Assembly (NCBI GenBank): GCA_026395915.1
Contig: JAPLXU010000014.1
Location: forward strand, 45,596 to 80,600
DNA length: 35,005 nucleotides
DNA from: Candidatus Nomurabacteria bacterium
Lineage (GTDB): Bacteria > Patescibacteriota > Minisyncoccia > Phycocordibacterales > UBA9973
Reading direction: 5' to 3'
A program made the translations under genes and the position numbers. The stretch's first letter is position 1. Each line of letters starts with the position of its first letter. This document shows positions 5,277 to 19,463 of the stretch, piece after piece. The notes under the pieces were generated by a model that did not search any database, had not been told where the DNA came from, and saw nothing but the letters and a program-made list of their open reading frames with translations.

Positions 5277-5936
5277 ATGAGTTTTGTTATAAAAACCACA
5301 ACGAAGGCAGAGGATCCGGTGAATTTTATTGCGTCCTCTATTTTGAATCAACTAAAGTCTGGCAAGACTGTTTTGTTTTTTGTTACTGGTGGTTCGTCTA
5401 TAGCTGTGGCTGTGAGAGTTTCAGTACTATTGAAGGATCATGATTTGGTAAACTTGACCATTATGATGACCGATGAGAGATATGGCGAGCCTAATCATGT
5501 CGATTCGAACTGGCATCAAATGTTTGAAAAAGGTTTTAACCTTTCCCGAGCCAAACTCATTCCTATTTTGACTGGAGATGATTTTGAAACGACGGTGGAA
5601 AAATTTAATGAAGATCTCGCCTATGAGTTTAACGTAGCTCAATACACCATCGGTTTATTTGGAGTAGGCAAGGATGGACACACGGCGGGCATACTTCCTC
5701 TTAGCGTGGCAGTGGAGTCGAAAGATTTAGCTTGTGGGTACACCACGCCGGAGTTTTCCCGCATCACAATTACTCCGGAGTTAATAAAAAATCTAGATGA
5801 AGCTGTGGTGTTTATGCAAGGCGAAGAAAAATGGAGTATGGTGCGAGATTTAGTAGAAAAGAAAATTGATATAAAAAAACAACCGGCTCAAATATTAAAA
5901 AAGGTCCCATTATTAACTTTATTTTCTGATTATTAA
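5277..5936 (+). CDS. pgl: 6-phosphogluconolactonase
   Basis: Hydrolyses 6-phosphogluconolactone, step two of the oxidative pentose phosphate pathway. The 219-aa protein is of the Pgl/NagB fold: VLFFVTGGSS near 31-40, MMTDERYGEPNHVDSNW near 62-78, and the signature GLFGVGKDGHTAGILP near 126-141 with the active-site DGHTA. Length matches DevB-type Pgl. gnd follows after 5 nt and zwf is third in the set. Predicted leaderless start at 5277. Confidence 0.92.
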   Translation: MSFVIKTTTKAEDPVNFIASSILNQLKSGKTVLFFVTGGSSIAVAVRVSVLLKDHDLVNLTIMMTDERYGEPNHVDSNWHQMFEKGFNLSRAKLIPILTGDDFETTVEKFNEDLAYEFNVAQYTIGLFGVGKDGHTAGILPLSVAVESKDLACGYTTPEFSRITITPELIKNLDEAVVFMQGEEKWSMVRDLVEKKIDIKKQPAQILKKVPLLTLFSDY

Positions 5937-15200: not shown

Positions 15201-15238
15201 GAACGGTTCTTAAGAGAGTTTCCCCAAGAACCGTTCTT
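15199..15238. repeat. Inverted repeat between atpF and atpH
   Basis: AAGAACGGTTCTT (15199-15211) and AAGAACCGTTCTT (15226-15238) are perfect 13-bp complements around a 14-nt loop; the left arm begins within the atpF stop codon. It may be a processing or partial termination hairpin. Confidence 0.75.
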
Positions 15239-15249
15239 GAAAACAAATT

Positions 15250-15678
15250 ATGACGATAATATCAAACAATGACATAGCTCGCGCGGTTTACCTTGTTTTA
15301 AAAGGTAGCGACTTGGAGGTCTTGCCTCCACTTGGAGGCAAGACCTCCAAGTATAGTAAAGTTGTCAGATTTTTGTTTAAAAAGAGACTTTTGTCAAAAA
15401 CTTCAGAAATTCTTTCACGATTGGGAAAAATAATAAATGAGGAAGAAGGCAGGACGGTAGCGAGAGTATCGAGTGCGGAAAAACTTGACCAGCAAAATAA
15501 AATAAAACTTGAGCATTTTTTAAAAAAACGGTATTCGGCGAAAGAAGTTGTTCTTTCTGAAAATTTAGATAAAAAATTATTAGGCGGACTAAAAATAGAA
15601 GCGAACAACGAAGTCATCGATTTATCAGTCAAAAATAAAATCGAAAAATTACAAGAATATTTAACAAAATCAGCATGA
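15250..15678 (+). CDS. atpH: F1Fo ATP synthase subunit delta (divergent)
   Basis: A 142-aa protein in the atpH position between atpF and atpA. It is shorter and more divergent than the usual ~180-aa delta: N-terminal helices ([11 protein letters not shown]), a C-terminal region with [20 protein letters not shown] (the usual delta pattern of a strand after DxxLLGG), then [17 protein letters not shown]. Residues 21-34 are encoded by a perfect 42-bp palindrome inserted without breaking the frame. Its stop overlaps the atpA start by 4 nt. Confidence 0.88.
15311..15352. repeat. Perfect 42-bp palindrome inside atpH
   Basis: Two 20-nt arms (left arm ACTTGGAGGTCTTGCCTCCA) are exact complements around a 2-nt centre. 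Its length is 14 codons and it encodes about [14 protein letters not shown] between two segments that look like one continuous delta helix region. Confidence 0.9.
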
Positions 15679-17177
15679 GTAGCAACACAATAATAGAAAA
15701 TTTAAAAAAGGAGATAGATAATTTTTCACTTCAGCTCAAAGTCGAGAAAGTCGGCCAAGTGCTGGAAGTTTTTGACGGCATCGCGAAAGTTTCCGGTCTT
15801 TCCGACATTAAATCATCCGAGATGGTGACTTTTCCGAACGGCGAAATCGGTGTTGCTCTCAATTTGGAAGAAGATGCGGTTGGAATAATTATTTTGGGAG
15901 ATTTTTCAAAAATTAAAGAAGGAGATGAAGTTAAATCTACCGGAAGAATTTTGGAAATTCCGGTTGCCGATAATATTTTAGGGCGAGTTGTCAATGCGGT
16001 TGGTGTTCCTATTGATGGGAAAGGGGCTCTGAAGACCGGGAAAACTTATCCAATAGAAAAAGTGGCTCCTGGTGTTATCACACGTCTCAGCGTTTCGGAA
16101 CCGGTGGCGACTGGCATAAAAGTTATCGATGCCATTATTCCTATTGGTCGCGGTCAACGCGAACTCATCATCGGTGACAGACAGACAGGAAAGACGGCTA
16201 TCGTTATCGACACTATTTTAAATCAAAAAGGCCAAAATATGATTTGCGTTTATGTTTCTATCGGTCAAAAGGATTCCAAGCTCCGCAAACTGGGAGCGCG
16301 GTTGGAAGCTGGAGGCGCCATGGCCTATACGGTCATTGTTTCTGCCGGAGCGTCAGAAGCGGCGTCTATGTCTTATATCGCGCCGTATGCCGGAGTTGCT
16401 ATCGCCGAATATTTTATGGATCAAGGCAAAGACGTTCTCATTATTTATGATGATCTTTCGAAACACGCTGTCGCTTATCGCGAAATTTCTCTACTTCTTC
16501 GTCGTCCACCGGGCCGTGAAGCGTATCCGGGAGACGTTTTTTATTTGCACTCAAGACTTCTCGAAAGAGCTTGCCGAAGAAATGCAAAATATGGAGGAGG
16601 TTCTATCACCGCGCTACCTATCATCGAGACGCAAGCAGGAGACGTGTCCGCGTATATTCCAACCAACGTTATTTCTATCACTGATGGGCAAATTTTCCTA
16701 GAGACTGATCTTTTTTATAAAGGAATTCGTCCAGCTGTCAACGTCGGCTTGTCGGTTTCTCGCGTCGGTTCAACCGCTCAAATCAAAGCTATGAAAAAAG
16801 TCGCGGGAACGCTGAAGCTCGATCTCGCGCAATTCCGCGAACTTGAAGCCTTCGCTCAATTCGGTTCTGACTTGGATGAAAGCACAAAGAAACAACTCGA
16901 ACGTGGCAAGCGCGCTGTGGAAGTTTTGAAACAACCGCAATATTCTCCAGTAAAAATCGAGTATCAGATTGTTGTTCTCTACGCTCTTACAAAAGGTTTT
17001 ATGGATGATGTTGCGATAGACAAAATAAAAGAATTTGAGACTGGACTTGTCGAATACAGTGAACGCCACGCAAAAGTTTTCTTTAAGGAAATCAAAGAAA
17101 GCAAAATGTGGACCGACAAAGGCGAAGAAGAATTAAAAAAAGTTATCGCGGATTTTAAAAGCAGTTTTGTGAAATAA
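15675..17177 (+). CDS. atpA: F1Fo ATP synthase subunit alpha
   Basis: A 500-aa non-catalytic nucleotide-binding F1 subunit. Walker A GDRQTGKT at 167-174, the Walker B region [12 protein letters not shown] near 250-261, and the ATPase signature [20 protein letters not shown] near 280-299. Full length, with no insert. Translationally coupled to atpH (ATGA overlap). Downstream, the operon is interrupted by two unrelated genes before atpG. Confidence 0.97.
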
Positions 17178-17181
17178 ATTT

Positions 17182-17679
17182 ATGTTTAGTTTATTTAAGA
17201 AAAAAAATAAGTATCAAGATTTGAGTAAAACCGTTGTTGCTGTTGGTCAATTTCTTATTGAAGACACTGGTTCAGATATGCCGACACCTTTAAAGGAATT
17301 TCTTGATCCTAAGAAACTTGATTTTTCATTAGAAAGTTTAAAATTAGTTGATTCTTATTTAGATGAAGTAAGAAAGCAAGAAAAGGATTTAAGTGAAGAC
17401 AAGCTTATCAAAATAGTCCTGAGATGTGGTGCTTATTGTGGAGAAGTCATAAGAAAAAATTCCAAGAAAAATAGATACTGGATAAATTATGATCATGCGA
17501 TTGTCATTGATCCTTTAGTAAAATCTTTTGAAAAATCCGTTTATACTTTTTATATACTTTTTGCAGAACCTAGGGATTTTGTTTTTCCTTTGGCAAAGGT
17601 TGGGAAATATATTGAAAATGGTTCAGAGGACAGTTTATATTTCTTAGCAATTAGTATTTTATCATCTGATAATAAATAA
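17182..17679 (+). CDS. Unknown protein inserted in the ATP synthase operon
   Basis: A 165-aa soluble protein starting 4 nt after atpA. It is helical at first (LESLKLVDSYLDEVRKQEKD), then has a central motif IVLRCGAYCGEVIRKN followed by YWINYDHAIVIDPL, a layout reminiscent of small DUF3806-type proteins (GAYxGE...W), though that match is tentative. C-terminal residues are DFVFPLAKVGKYIENGSEDS. It is not an ATP synthase subunit. Base composition is more AT-rich than the flanking atpA. It stands 3 nt before a Bro-N gene, so both probably arrived together. Confidence 0.6.
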   Translation: MFSLFKKKNKYQDLSKTVVAVGQFLIEDTGSDMPTPLKEFLDPKKLDFSLESLKLVDSYLDEVRKQEKDLSEDKLIKIVLRCGAYCGEVIRKNSKKNRYWINYDHAIVIDPLVKSFEKSVYTFYILFAEPRDFVFPLAKVGKYIENGSEDSLYFLAISILSSDNK

Positions 17680-17682
17680 TTT

Positions 17683-18519
17683 ATGACAGGAGCAAAGGTA
17701 ACAAATAAAAATATTAAACTATTCGAAGGAAACAAAGTCCGTCGAGTTTGGCATGATGACAAATGGTTTTTTGTTATTGAAGATATTGTGCTTACTCTCA
17801 TTGATTCAAGTGATGTGAAGCAGTATATACAAAGAATGAAACAACGCGATTTAGAGCTTGGTCAAGGGTGGGTACAAATTGTACATATCCTAGACATATC
17901 AACAAAAGGTGGCATACAAAAAATGAATTGTGCTGATTTGGAAGGCATTTTTCGCATTATTCAGTCTATTCCATCCCCCAAAGCAGAACCTTTCAAGCAG
18001 TGGCTAGCAAAAGTAGGTAAAGAAAGAGTTGACGAAATCCAAAATCCAGAACTCGCAATGGAGAGAATGAAAAGTTTATATGAACAAAAAGGTTATCCCG
18101 AAGAATGGATAGCAAAAAGAATGCGCGGTATTGCTGTCCGTAATACTTTGACTGACGAATGGAACAAGCGAGGTCTCAAAAAGGGAGTTGAATACGCGAT
18201 TTTGACCAACGAAATAATGCAGGGAACTTTCGATATGAAAGTAGATGATTATAAAAAACATAAAAATCTTTCCGTTCAACATAATTTGCGAGATCATATG
18301 GGAGACATAGAGCTTATATTGACAATGCTTGCCGAGGCGACAACAACCAAGCTTTCTGTCGATCGTGATTCTTTGGGTTTTAATAAATTATATGGTGATG
18401 CGAAAGAAGGAGGAGAGATAGTCGGCAAGACACGCAAAGAAATAGAAAGTCGTTCCGGTAAAAAAATTCTAACAGGTAATAATTTTTTAAGCATTAAAAA
18501 TAGAAAGAAATTAAAATAA
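17683..18519 (+). CDS. Bro-N domain protein, phage antirepressor-like
   Basis: A 278-aa protein. Residues 1-110 are a Bro-N domain (IKLFEGNKVRRVWHDDKWFF, then VIEDIVLTLIDSSDVKQYIQ, then GIFRIIQSIPSPKAEPFKQW), the DNA-binding module of phage antirepressors. The C-terminal part (AKRMRGIAVRNTLTDEWNKR, then VEYAILTNEIMQGTFDMKV) resembles DinD/antirepressor-type proteins that often follow Bro-N. Known relatives act in phage lysogeny control or damage responses; the role here is unknown. Its place between atpA and atpG is unusual and points to a mobile origin, though no integrase or repeat boundary is visible. Confidence 0.82.
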   Translation: MTGAKVTNKNIKLFEGNKVRRVWHDDKWFFVIEDIVLTLIDSSDVKQYIQRMKQRDLELGQGWVQIVHILDISTKGGIQKMNCADLEGIFRIIQSIPSPKAEPFKQWLAKVGKERVDEIQNPELAMERMKSLYEQKGYPEEWIAKRMRGIAVRNTLTDEWNKRGLKKGVEYAILTNEIMQGTFDMKVDDYKKHKNLSVQHNLRDHMGDIELILTMLAEATTTKLSVDRDSLGFNKLYGDAKEGGEIVGKTRKEIESRSGKKILTGNNFLSIKNRKKLK

Positions 18520-18530
18520 AAAAGTGTTAG

Positions 18531-18536
18531 TATAAT
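18531..18536 (+). promoter_or_regulatory. Possible internal promoter before atpG
   Basis: TATAAT ends 3 nt before the atpG ATG. No -35 is evident. It could restore transcription of atpGDC after the inserted genes, but the spacing is tighter than at other leaderless starts. Confidence 0.4.
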
Positions 18537-18539
18537 TTT

Positions 18540-19463
18540 ATGGCAGGTACCAAAGAAATCAAAAGACGAATAAAGAGCGTAAAGAACACGAAAAAGATCA
18601 CCAAAGCGATGGAACTCGTTTCGGCTTCAAAAATGAAACGCGCGGTGGCTTCGACGCTCGCTTCGCGATTGTATTCCGAATATTCTTGGGAGATTCTGAC
18701 TTCAGTTGCCAAAAATGTTGAAGAACTTGACCATCCGCTTTTTAATGAAAGAAACAAAAAAAACATCACCGGAAAAATTTTATTGATTTTGATCACTTCA
18801 AATCGTGGTTTGTGCGGAGCATACAACGCGCAAGTCGTCAAAAAAACTATTTCGTTGTTAAAAAATCAAAATGTGAAAATCGATGTCGTGACAATCGGCA
18901 AGAAAGGAGACGTCGCGATGCGCAGACTCGGCGTGAAAGTTATAGCTACTTTTGCAGAATTGAGCGATCGCATTTTTTTGTCCGAAATTATTCCTATTTC
19001 GAAACTGGCGATGGACGAATATATCGCTCTCCACTATGATAAAGTGTTGGTAGCGTACACAGATTTTATCTCAGCGCTCACACAGAGGGCGAACGTCAAA
19101 CAAATATTACCTGTTTCCAAAACAGATTTGAAAGAGCTCATCGAGTCAATGGAAAAAATCGAGCATGAGAAAAAAGTGGAGGACGGTCCTTCGCAAGACA
19201 GAAAAGTGAATTATTTGTTTGAAGGAGACAAAATTAAATTGATCAGTTCGCTCGCAGAAAAATTGACCAGAATGCAAATATACCAGATGCTTCTTGAGTC
19301 AAACGCTTCGGAGCAGTCGTCCCGAATGGTTGCCATGAAAAACGCTTCGGACGCCTCAGGAGAAATGATCGACGACTTGACTCTGGCATTCAACAAAGCG
19401 AGACAGGCGAACATTACCAGAGAGATATCAGAAATCAGCGCCGGAATGGCATCAGTAAGTTGA
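18540..19463 (+). CDS. atpG: F1Fo ATP synthase subunit gamma
   Basis: The 307-aa central stalk rotor. The N-terminal helix KEIKRRIKSVKNTKKITKAM and the C-terminal helix with ASEQSSRMVAMKNASDASGE, then MIDDLTLAFNKARQANITRE, are both typical, with a Rossmann-like middle (GKILLILITSNRGLCGAYNA). Slightly longer than E. coli gamma, with extra residues near 205-230. It resumes the standard order after the two inserted genes. Confidence 0.95.
   Translation: MAGTKEIKRRIKSVKNTKKITKAMELVSASKMKRAVASTLASRLYSEYSWEILTSVAKNVEELDHPLFNERNKKNITGKILLILITSNRGLCGAYNAQVVKKTISLLKNQNVKIDVVTIGKKGDVAMRRLGVKVIATFAELSDRIFLSEIIPISKLAMDEYIALHYDKVLVAYTDFISALTQRANVKQILPVSKTDLKELIESMEKIEHEKKVEDGPSQDRKVNYLFEGDKIKLISSLAEKLTRMQIYQMLLESNASEQSSRMVAMKNASDASGEMIDDLTLAFNKARQANITREISEISAGMASVS

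Follow-up and report, generated by a model that had tools for sequence, protein, structure and literature searches.

What is a Bro-N gene doing between atpA and atpG, inside the ATP synthase operon of a Candidatus Nomurabacteria bacterium, and how did it come to lie there? The window (the whole stretch of 35,005 nucleotides analyzed here) belongs to an 812 kb draft genome that is 95.7% complete. On its + strand the order is atpA, ORF165, Bro-N, atpG, with gaps of 4 nt between the atpA stop and ORF165 and of 3 nt between ORF165 and Bro-N. A preliminary description of this DNA had reported a 165-aa open reading frame and a Bro-N gene in the same direction, 3-4 nt apart; both were found at exactly those coordinates, and Pfam agrees for atpA, Bro-N, and atpG. 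The features are as follows:

15675..17177, +, atpA (F1 alpha), the upstream flank of the insertion; Pfam ATP-synt_ab, 281 bits
17182..17679, +, ORF165, the cargo gene; 28.5% GC, no Pfam family
17683..18519, +, the Bro-N protein, 278 aa; Pfam Bro-N 42.1 bits, PADLOC PDC-S13 350.5 bits, model pLDDT 89, DdrC-like fold
17683..17697, +, the first five Bro-N codons (MTGAK), which probably stem from the atpG start (MAGTK)
17785..17946, +, segment V, codons 35-88, exchangeable; predicted recognition helix and beta wing
17809..17850, +, predicted recognition helix, codons 43-56, whose residues track the palindrome
17864..17892, no strand, intragenic palindrome; core GTACAA[A]TTGTAC at 17872-17884, 10 of 14 mirror positions complementary
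18520..18539, +, spacer before atpG, with TATAAT at 18531-18536
18540..19463, +, atpG (F1 gamma), the downstream flank; Pfam ATP-synt, 279 bits

As had been expected, atpA and atpG are adjacent in most genomes of the family (median gap 15 nt), and the interruption of this essential operon is real, sense-oriented, and low in GC (36% for Bro-N and less still for ORF165, against 43% for atpA). Read-through into the downstream atp genes, as implied by the proposed co-expression, is plausible because the insertion is sense-oriented and, in the window, holds no terminator-like site; together with the short gaps, these features suggest that ORF165 and Bro-N are co-transcribed with the atp genes. ORF165 itself is nearly an orphan: a single, distant relative (34-38% identity, adjoining ychF) occurs among 297 genomes of the order, searches of Pfam, PHROG, PADLOC, and NCBIfam gave no match, no PDB match was convincing, and the fold prediction failed (pLDDT 40). 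The TATAAT before atpG had been read as a possible repair of transcription, that is, a repaired promoter. The repeated promoter-like start signal of the window is TGNTATAAT followed after 6 nt by ATG (seven occurrences when one mismatch is allowed, 0.8 expected), and since the hexamer before atpG has a spacing of 3 nt and no TG, this role is doubtful. The spacer in another atp-site genome, G109, is similar, which suggests that the TATAAT spacer arrived with the Bro-N gene. Elsewhere in the window, at 5277, 10655, and 25424, TGNTATAAT stands exactly 6 nt 5' of an ATG, an arrangement that suggests leaderless mRNAs.

The Bro-N protein exceeds the Pfam gathering cut-off for PF02498 (25.6 bits), and its match to PDC-S13, a candidate-defense profile, spans residues 8-275. 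For the DinD equivalog NF008573 the score is 23.7 bits, where the cut-off is 242, and the protein is therefore assigned to a sister subfamily of DinD. Relatives are found in Patescibacteria, Bacteroidota, DPANN, and other archaea, the nearest named ones being in Candidatus Nomurabacteria MAGs, and several adjoin type I restriction-modification (R-M) genes (HsdM, HsdS, HsdR). Judged by these matches, the protein is a member of a cellular Bro-N/DinD family. Its predicted model aligns over the whole chain with the structure of DdrC (Foldseek E 6.5e-6; VIA-align Z 15.1 over 214 residues, Z 7.3 for the N-domain alone), at 8-10% identity in the structural alignment; other solved structures had Z below 8 and were set aside as evidence. 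We take the product to be a DNA-binding protein with a DdrC-like fold, probably a dimer. The literature searched contained nothing on Bro-N in connection with Patescibacteria and nothing on PDC-S13. On the Arcobacter cloacae plasmid pACLO (L258), a Bro-N gene with a perfect palindrome of 14-bp arms lies between cas4 and cas1b in a type I-B CRISPR operon.

The insertion had also been called rare. Most atpA-atpG junctions are indeed empty, as insertions (at least 300 nt) were present in 6 of the 68 family genomes surveyed, but insertion recurs in this genus, both here and at rpoB-rpoC, where 7 of 50 junctions are filled. The controls were three neighboring junctions of the atp operon, with insertions in 0 of 36 cases for atpF-atpH and atpH-atpA and in 2 of about 50 for atpG-atpD. 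One atpG-atpD junction (L117) contains an ORF of 241 aa whose match to Peptidase_M78 (IrrE-like) is weak and falls short of the Pfam cut-off. Bro-N/DinD and toxin-antitoxin genes are abundant in the atpA-atpG and rpoB-rpoC insertions. Orthologous Bro-N genes (76-77% identity) occupy the atpA-atpG site in two genomes of the same genus, accompanied by HicB and HicA in G098 and by a 105-aa ORF in G109 in place of the ORF165 of the window genome, and the remaining inserts at this junction contain a gene resembling VRR-NUC, with a score below the cut-off, and two uncharacterized genes. At rpoB-rpoC, the window genome carries its second Bro-N gene; three genomes carry PemK/MazF-like genes with membrane or lipoprotein genes; one insert comprises a lipoprotein gene, RelB, and YafQ; and DinD with a PsbP-like gene occurs in G098 and, in reversed order, in G116 (L244 and L245; the DinD proteins are 93% identical). 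A third common site lies between two transketolase subunit genes, with Bro-N in L032 and a shortened DinD in G098 (L239, 2740-3285). Sense ORFs cover 84-99% of the ten inserts checked, and antisense ORFs are all 99 aa or shorter.

The recurrence at rpoB-rpoC and atpA-atpG was seen in this genus only: among 46 Bro-N-holding genomes of other families, none had Bro-N at either junction. The ORF165 and Bro-N pair, which if shared with distant lineages would have been an old and stable feature of the site, did not occur in them, the one other ORF165 in the order being that beside ychF. Two genomes of another family have Bro-N shortly downstream of rpoC (G405, C4:17577-17858; G382, C2:56725-56955). 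This is thus a genus in which defense-like and toxin-antitoxin genes repeatedly settle within rpoBC and the atp operon.

On the tree of atpA and atpG, the three genomes with Bro-N at the atp site are scattered among relatives with empty sites, a distribution that takes three gains, or one gain and 14 losses; a single old insertion was rejected on this count. Homologous replacement of the atp region may also have served as a route of descent, since the C-terminal parts of the three Bro-N proteins are mutually closest relatives. The Bro-N proteins at the atp site begin in an AtpG-like manner: MTGAKV in the window, MAGTKEK in G098, and MASTKEK in G109. In G109, the opening 18 nt of the Bro-N gene match the atpG start of the clade-mate G127 exactly, and the same holds for the G098 gene and atpG of G101; the relative in L032, at another site, begins MKKKET and matches the atpG start at only 8-9 of 19 positions. 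In G098, an imperfect direct repeat of the atpG start (31 nt, 81%) stands at both ends of the insert. From the AtpG-like starts, the 18-nt identities, and this end repeat, the insertion probably captured the start of atpG, and in G109 the captured start apparently has the form found in that genome's clade. No recombinase was found among the inserted ORFs, and no inverted repeat at the two ends of the window insert, so that in these respects it does not look like a transposon or integron cassette. On our reading, Bro-N came in by horizontal transfer, with a cargo gene, and settled in sense orientation at the atpG start. Short GC-rich palindromic elements were noted at the atpG 5' end of the atpA-atpG junction in L117, L129, L136, L155, and L157; in L155 the element directly follows ATGGCAGGTACCAAAG and atpG apparently restarts downstream, and a similar GC-rich repeat precedes atpH in the window (about 15205-15245).

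Within the Bro-N gene, one segment has a history of its own. Beyond residue 92, the three proteins from the atp site share 86-95% identity, but in residues 35-92 they share 31-42%; at the DNA level, the window and G098 genes share 20-50% in the segment and about 76-93% in its flanks. The reverse is seen between L015 and L096, where V is 70-96% identical and much of the remainder 53-76%. Among 64 homologs, V falls into discrete types that show little association with the remainder of the protein (correlation 0.19), and the trees of V and of the rest conflict (AU p 7e-13 and 1e-29). Forcing V onto the trees of the C-terminal part costs 1720-1914 lnL units, against 116-479 for the three C-terminal segments of equal size that served as controls, placed on each other's trees, and 2321 for a random-label tree. 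Residues 35-88, the predicted helix and wing, are thereby shown to be swapped as a cassette, independently of other parts of the protein. Outside V, selection is strongly purifying (pN/pS 0.04-0.15).

The same cassette contains a palindrome, at codons ∼61-71, which varies in sequence from gene to gene yet remains self-complementary, with 6-17 bp per arm and a length of up to 35 bp. One example among the V types reads AGTTGTCGACAA-t-TTGTCGACAACT; others are AAGTGGGGTACAA-t-TTGTACCCCACTT in the Bro-N of G109, AGTTGTACGA-gaaaa-TCGTACAACT in that of G098, and GGTGACAA-a-TTGTCACC in the rpo-site gene of the window genome. The window's own copy at the atp site is among the weaker ones, with six perfect pairs about its central base. 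The mean of the best inverted-repeat score is 9.1 at this position and 4.3-5.1 elsewhere in the same genes. In set A3, 85% of cells pair (59.2 ± 1.2 in shuffled data), and the covariation score is 0.642 against 0.200 shuffled (0 of 500 reach it), falling to 0.10-0.20 when the partner is slid by 1-3 columns; the A3 centers were picked to maximize symmetry, so that these counts lean toward pairing. Three tests are free of that bias. When only the inner CAANTTG was used to place the center, complementarity between mirror bases at distances of 4-14 nt was 51-100%, and shuffling gave 24-65%; a null with the same maximization gives 7.39, compared with the 11.66 of 14 observed; and synonymous-codon shuffles give 8.12, with 58 of 64 genes above their own 95th percentile. 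An independent set of 41 genes from viral contigs behaves likewise (11.61 against 8.23; 37 of 41 above the 95th percentile). In the DinD subfamily, where the palindrome takes its own version, encoding HF...KMV, 16 of 17 genes were positive. Named plasmid copies have a palindrome in two of three cases, and the Chlorohelix Bro-N is without one. These results show symmetry beyond the coding demands of the protein, maintained with compensatory change. Each palindrome core occurs, as an exact copy, only once in the window genome, in its own gene, so that no other regulated target is visible there.

The palindrome also corresponds to the helix encoded upstream of it. Residues 46-55, which lie outside the palindromic codons, correlate with the palindrome DNA (r 0.78), and residues 11-25 and 86 onward do so at about zero. 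In the viral genes, nearest-neighbor prediction from helix residues 43-56 recovers half-sites at 0.79 identity, compared with 0.44-0.50 from other segments and 0.45 at random. Individual residues follow individual bases: before YWxDLK, K occurs with TCCGA in 14 of 14 genes and R with TACGA in 8 of 9 (K/R to C/A), and before Y[ILV]K, Q accompanies GTAC (12 of 12), D accompanies GGAC (10 of 10), and G accompanies GGGC (6 of 8), that is, Q/D/G to TA/GA/GG. Such matches would be expected of a recognition helix that reads the site. Linkage alone could produce the overall correlation, because helix and palindrome travel in one exchanged cassette, and a small number of ancestral events may lie behind the residue-base matches.

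We consider it fairly probable, on the evidence of the sequences, that the locus is explained by a cellular Bro-N/DinD gene, horizontally acquired, whose V cassette holds a palindrome that is the putative site of its own product. Bro-N, as a dimer, would bind the palindrome in its own gene; a single piece of DNA would then encode both specificity and target, and swapping V would therefore swap both. The bound protein may form an autoregulatory roadblock or a sensor site, and would serve a damage response or defense. If so, the co-varying palindrome and helix would provide a candidate target for each family member, and a readable protein-DNA code, and would show how one recombination step can give a gene both a new DNA specificity and a new target.

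Other accounts of the palindrome are possible. It might be a recombination or cruciform site, where breakage or extrusion of the DNA sets off gene conversion among members of the family; the exchanged segment would be centered on the palindrome because conversion begins there, and the tract (codons 35-88) is in fact roughly so centered, with DNA identity falling sharply from 80-93% in the flanks to 20-50% inside it. The exchange between L015 and L096 would fit as well. Such a site does not predict, however, any link between specific bases and helix residues encoded outside the palindrome, and it leaves unexplained why arms that differ between types are nonetheless complementary; we regard it as unlikely, though worth serious consideration. 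A hairpin in the Bro-N mRNA that controls its translation or decay has a low probability: the palindrome lies on the coding strand and its arms could fold as RNA, but G-T mismatches (the G-U type) are no commoner than A-C (19 and 16, both below expectation), which favors double-stranded DNA over RNA, and the matching of helix to palindrome would go unexplained.

The gene itself could be read differently. The preliminary description took the insertion to be of phage type, and a prophage remnant that brought in an orphan together with an antirepressor gene of a phage would account for the Bro-N domain, for weak PHROG anti-repressor matches to the N-terminal part, and for the relatives on some viral contigs. 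That view did not hold up, and we give it very little credence: the surroundings are atp genes with no phage genes among them, the family is mainly cellular with relatives beside R-M genes, and only 4 of 50,697 phage records, all unannotated fecal contigs, contain a relative. PHROG anti-repressor models reach at most 34 bits, against 266 for a family of unknown function and 350 for the PADLOC candidate-defense profile. A phage antirepressor (Ant) was rejected for want of both a phage or prophage context and a C-terminal ANT/KilAC domain, for which Pfam gave no match at E up to 1. Ordinary neutral gain in a compact genome, with no special link between protein and operon, has a slim chance of being right, as does misassembly. 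Other types of gene are also present in these junctions, but the 119 family genomes yield 44 Bro-N matches, of which 6 fall in two junctions where ∼0.12 would be expected from random placement over ∼750 junctions (P 3e-9; a post hoc test, the junctions having been picked after they were seen), and the purifying selection outside V likewise speaks against neutrality. Misassembly is not supported, since three genomes share the orthologous Bro-N and differ in its companions. If Bro-N does bind its own palindrome, the bound protein might further block the polymerase and so make the essential genes downstream of it responsive to damage or infection. Bound Bro-N/DinD would stop read-through into atpG-atpD-atpC, or rpoC, and a change of binding upon damage or phage infection would throttle ATP synthase or RNA polymerase. 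A single gene would then act as a switch for dormancy or abortive infection, with specificity cassette and target in the same DNA, and Bro-N/DinD would be parked between essential genes because the bound protein blocks read-through. We hold this extension to be quite unlikely.

Bro-N genes are widespread, and DinD is a damage-induced protein of E. coli without a clear role. DinD (DNA damage-inducible protein D) shares the superfamily of the window protein, with a Bro-N N-domain and a helical C-part (the DinD of G116 scores 314 bits to NF008573 and 331 bits to PDC-S13), and dinD of E. coli K-12 has an intragenic palindrome of the same kind, TGACCATTTCGAGGA-ga-TCCTCGATATGGTCA, of which no description was found in the literature searched. 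DdrC of Deinococcus radiodurans resembles the window protein in fold over its full length but hardly in sequence; it is DNA-damage-induced, occurs as monomer and dimer in solution, and binds DNA without sequence specificity (PMC5436757). The PDC-S13 profile matches both the window protein and the G116 DinD, and several relatives are embedded in type I R-M operons, whereas the genes described here sit in atp, rpo, and transketolase operons. We know of no defense test of PDC-S13. In HsdS, target-recognition domains are shuffled, and specificity segments are swapped between conserved flanks as in Bro-N, although the HsdS target does not lie within the exchanged codons. The lac O2 site in lacZ is an intragenic autoregulatory operator, a palindromic protein site within coding sequence such as is proposed here; the putative Bro-N site differs in that it occupies codons of its reader's own recognition segment, and co-varies with that segment.
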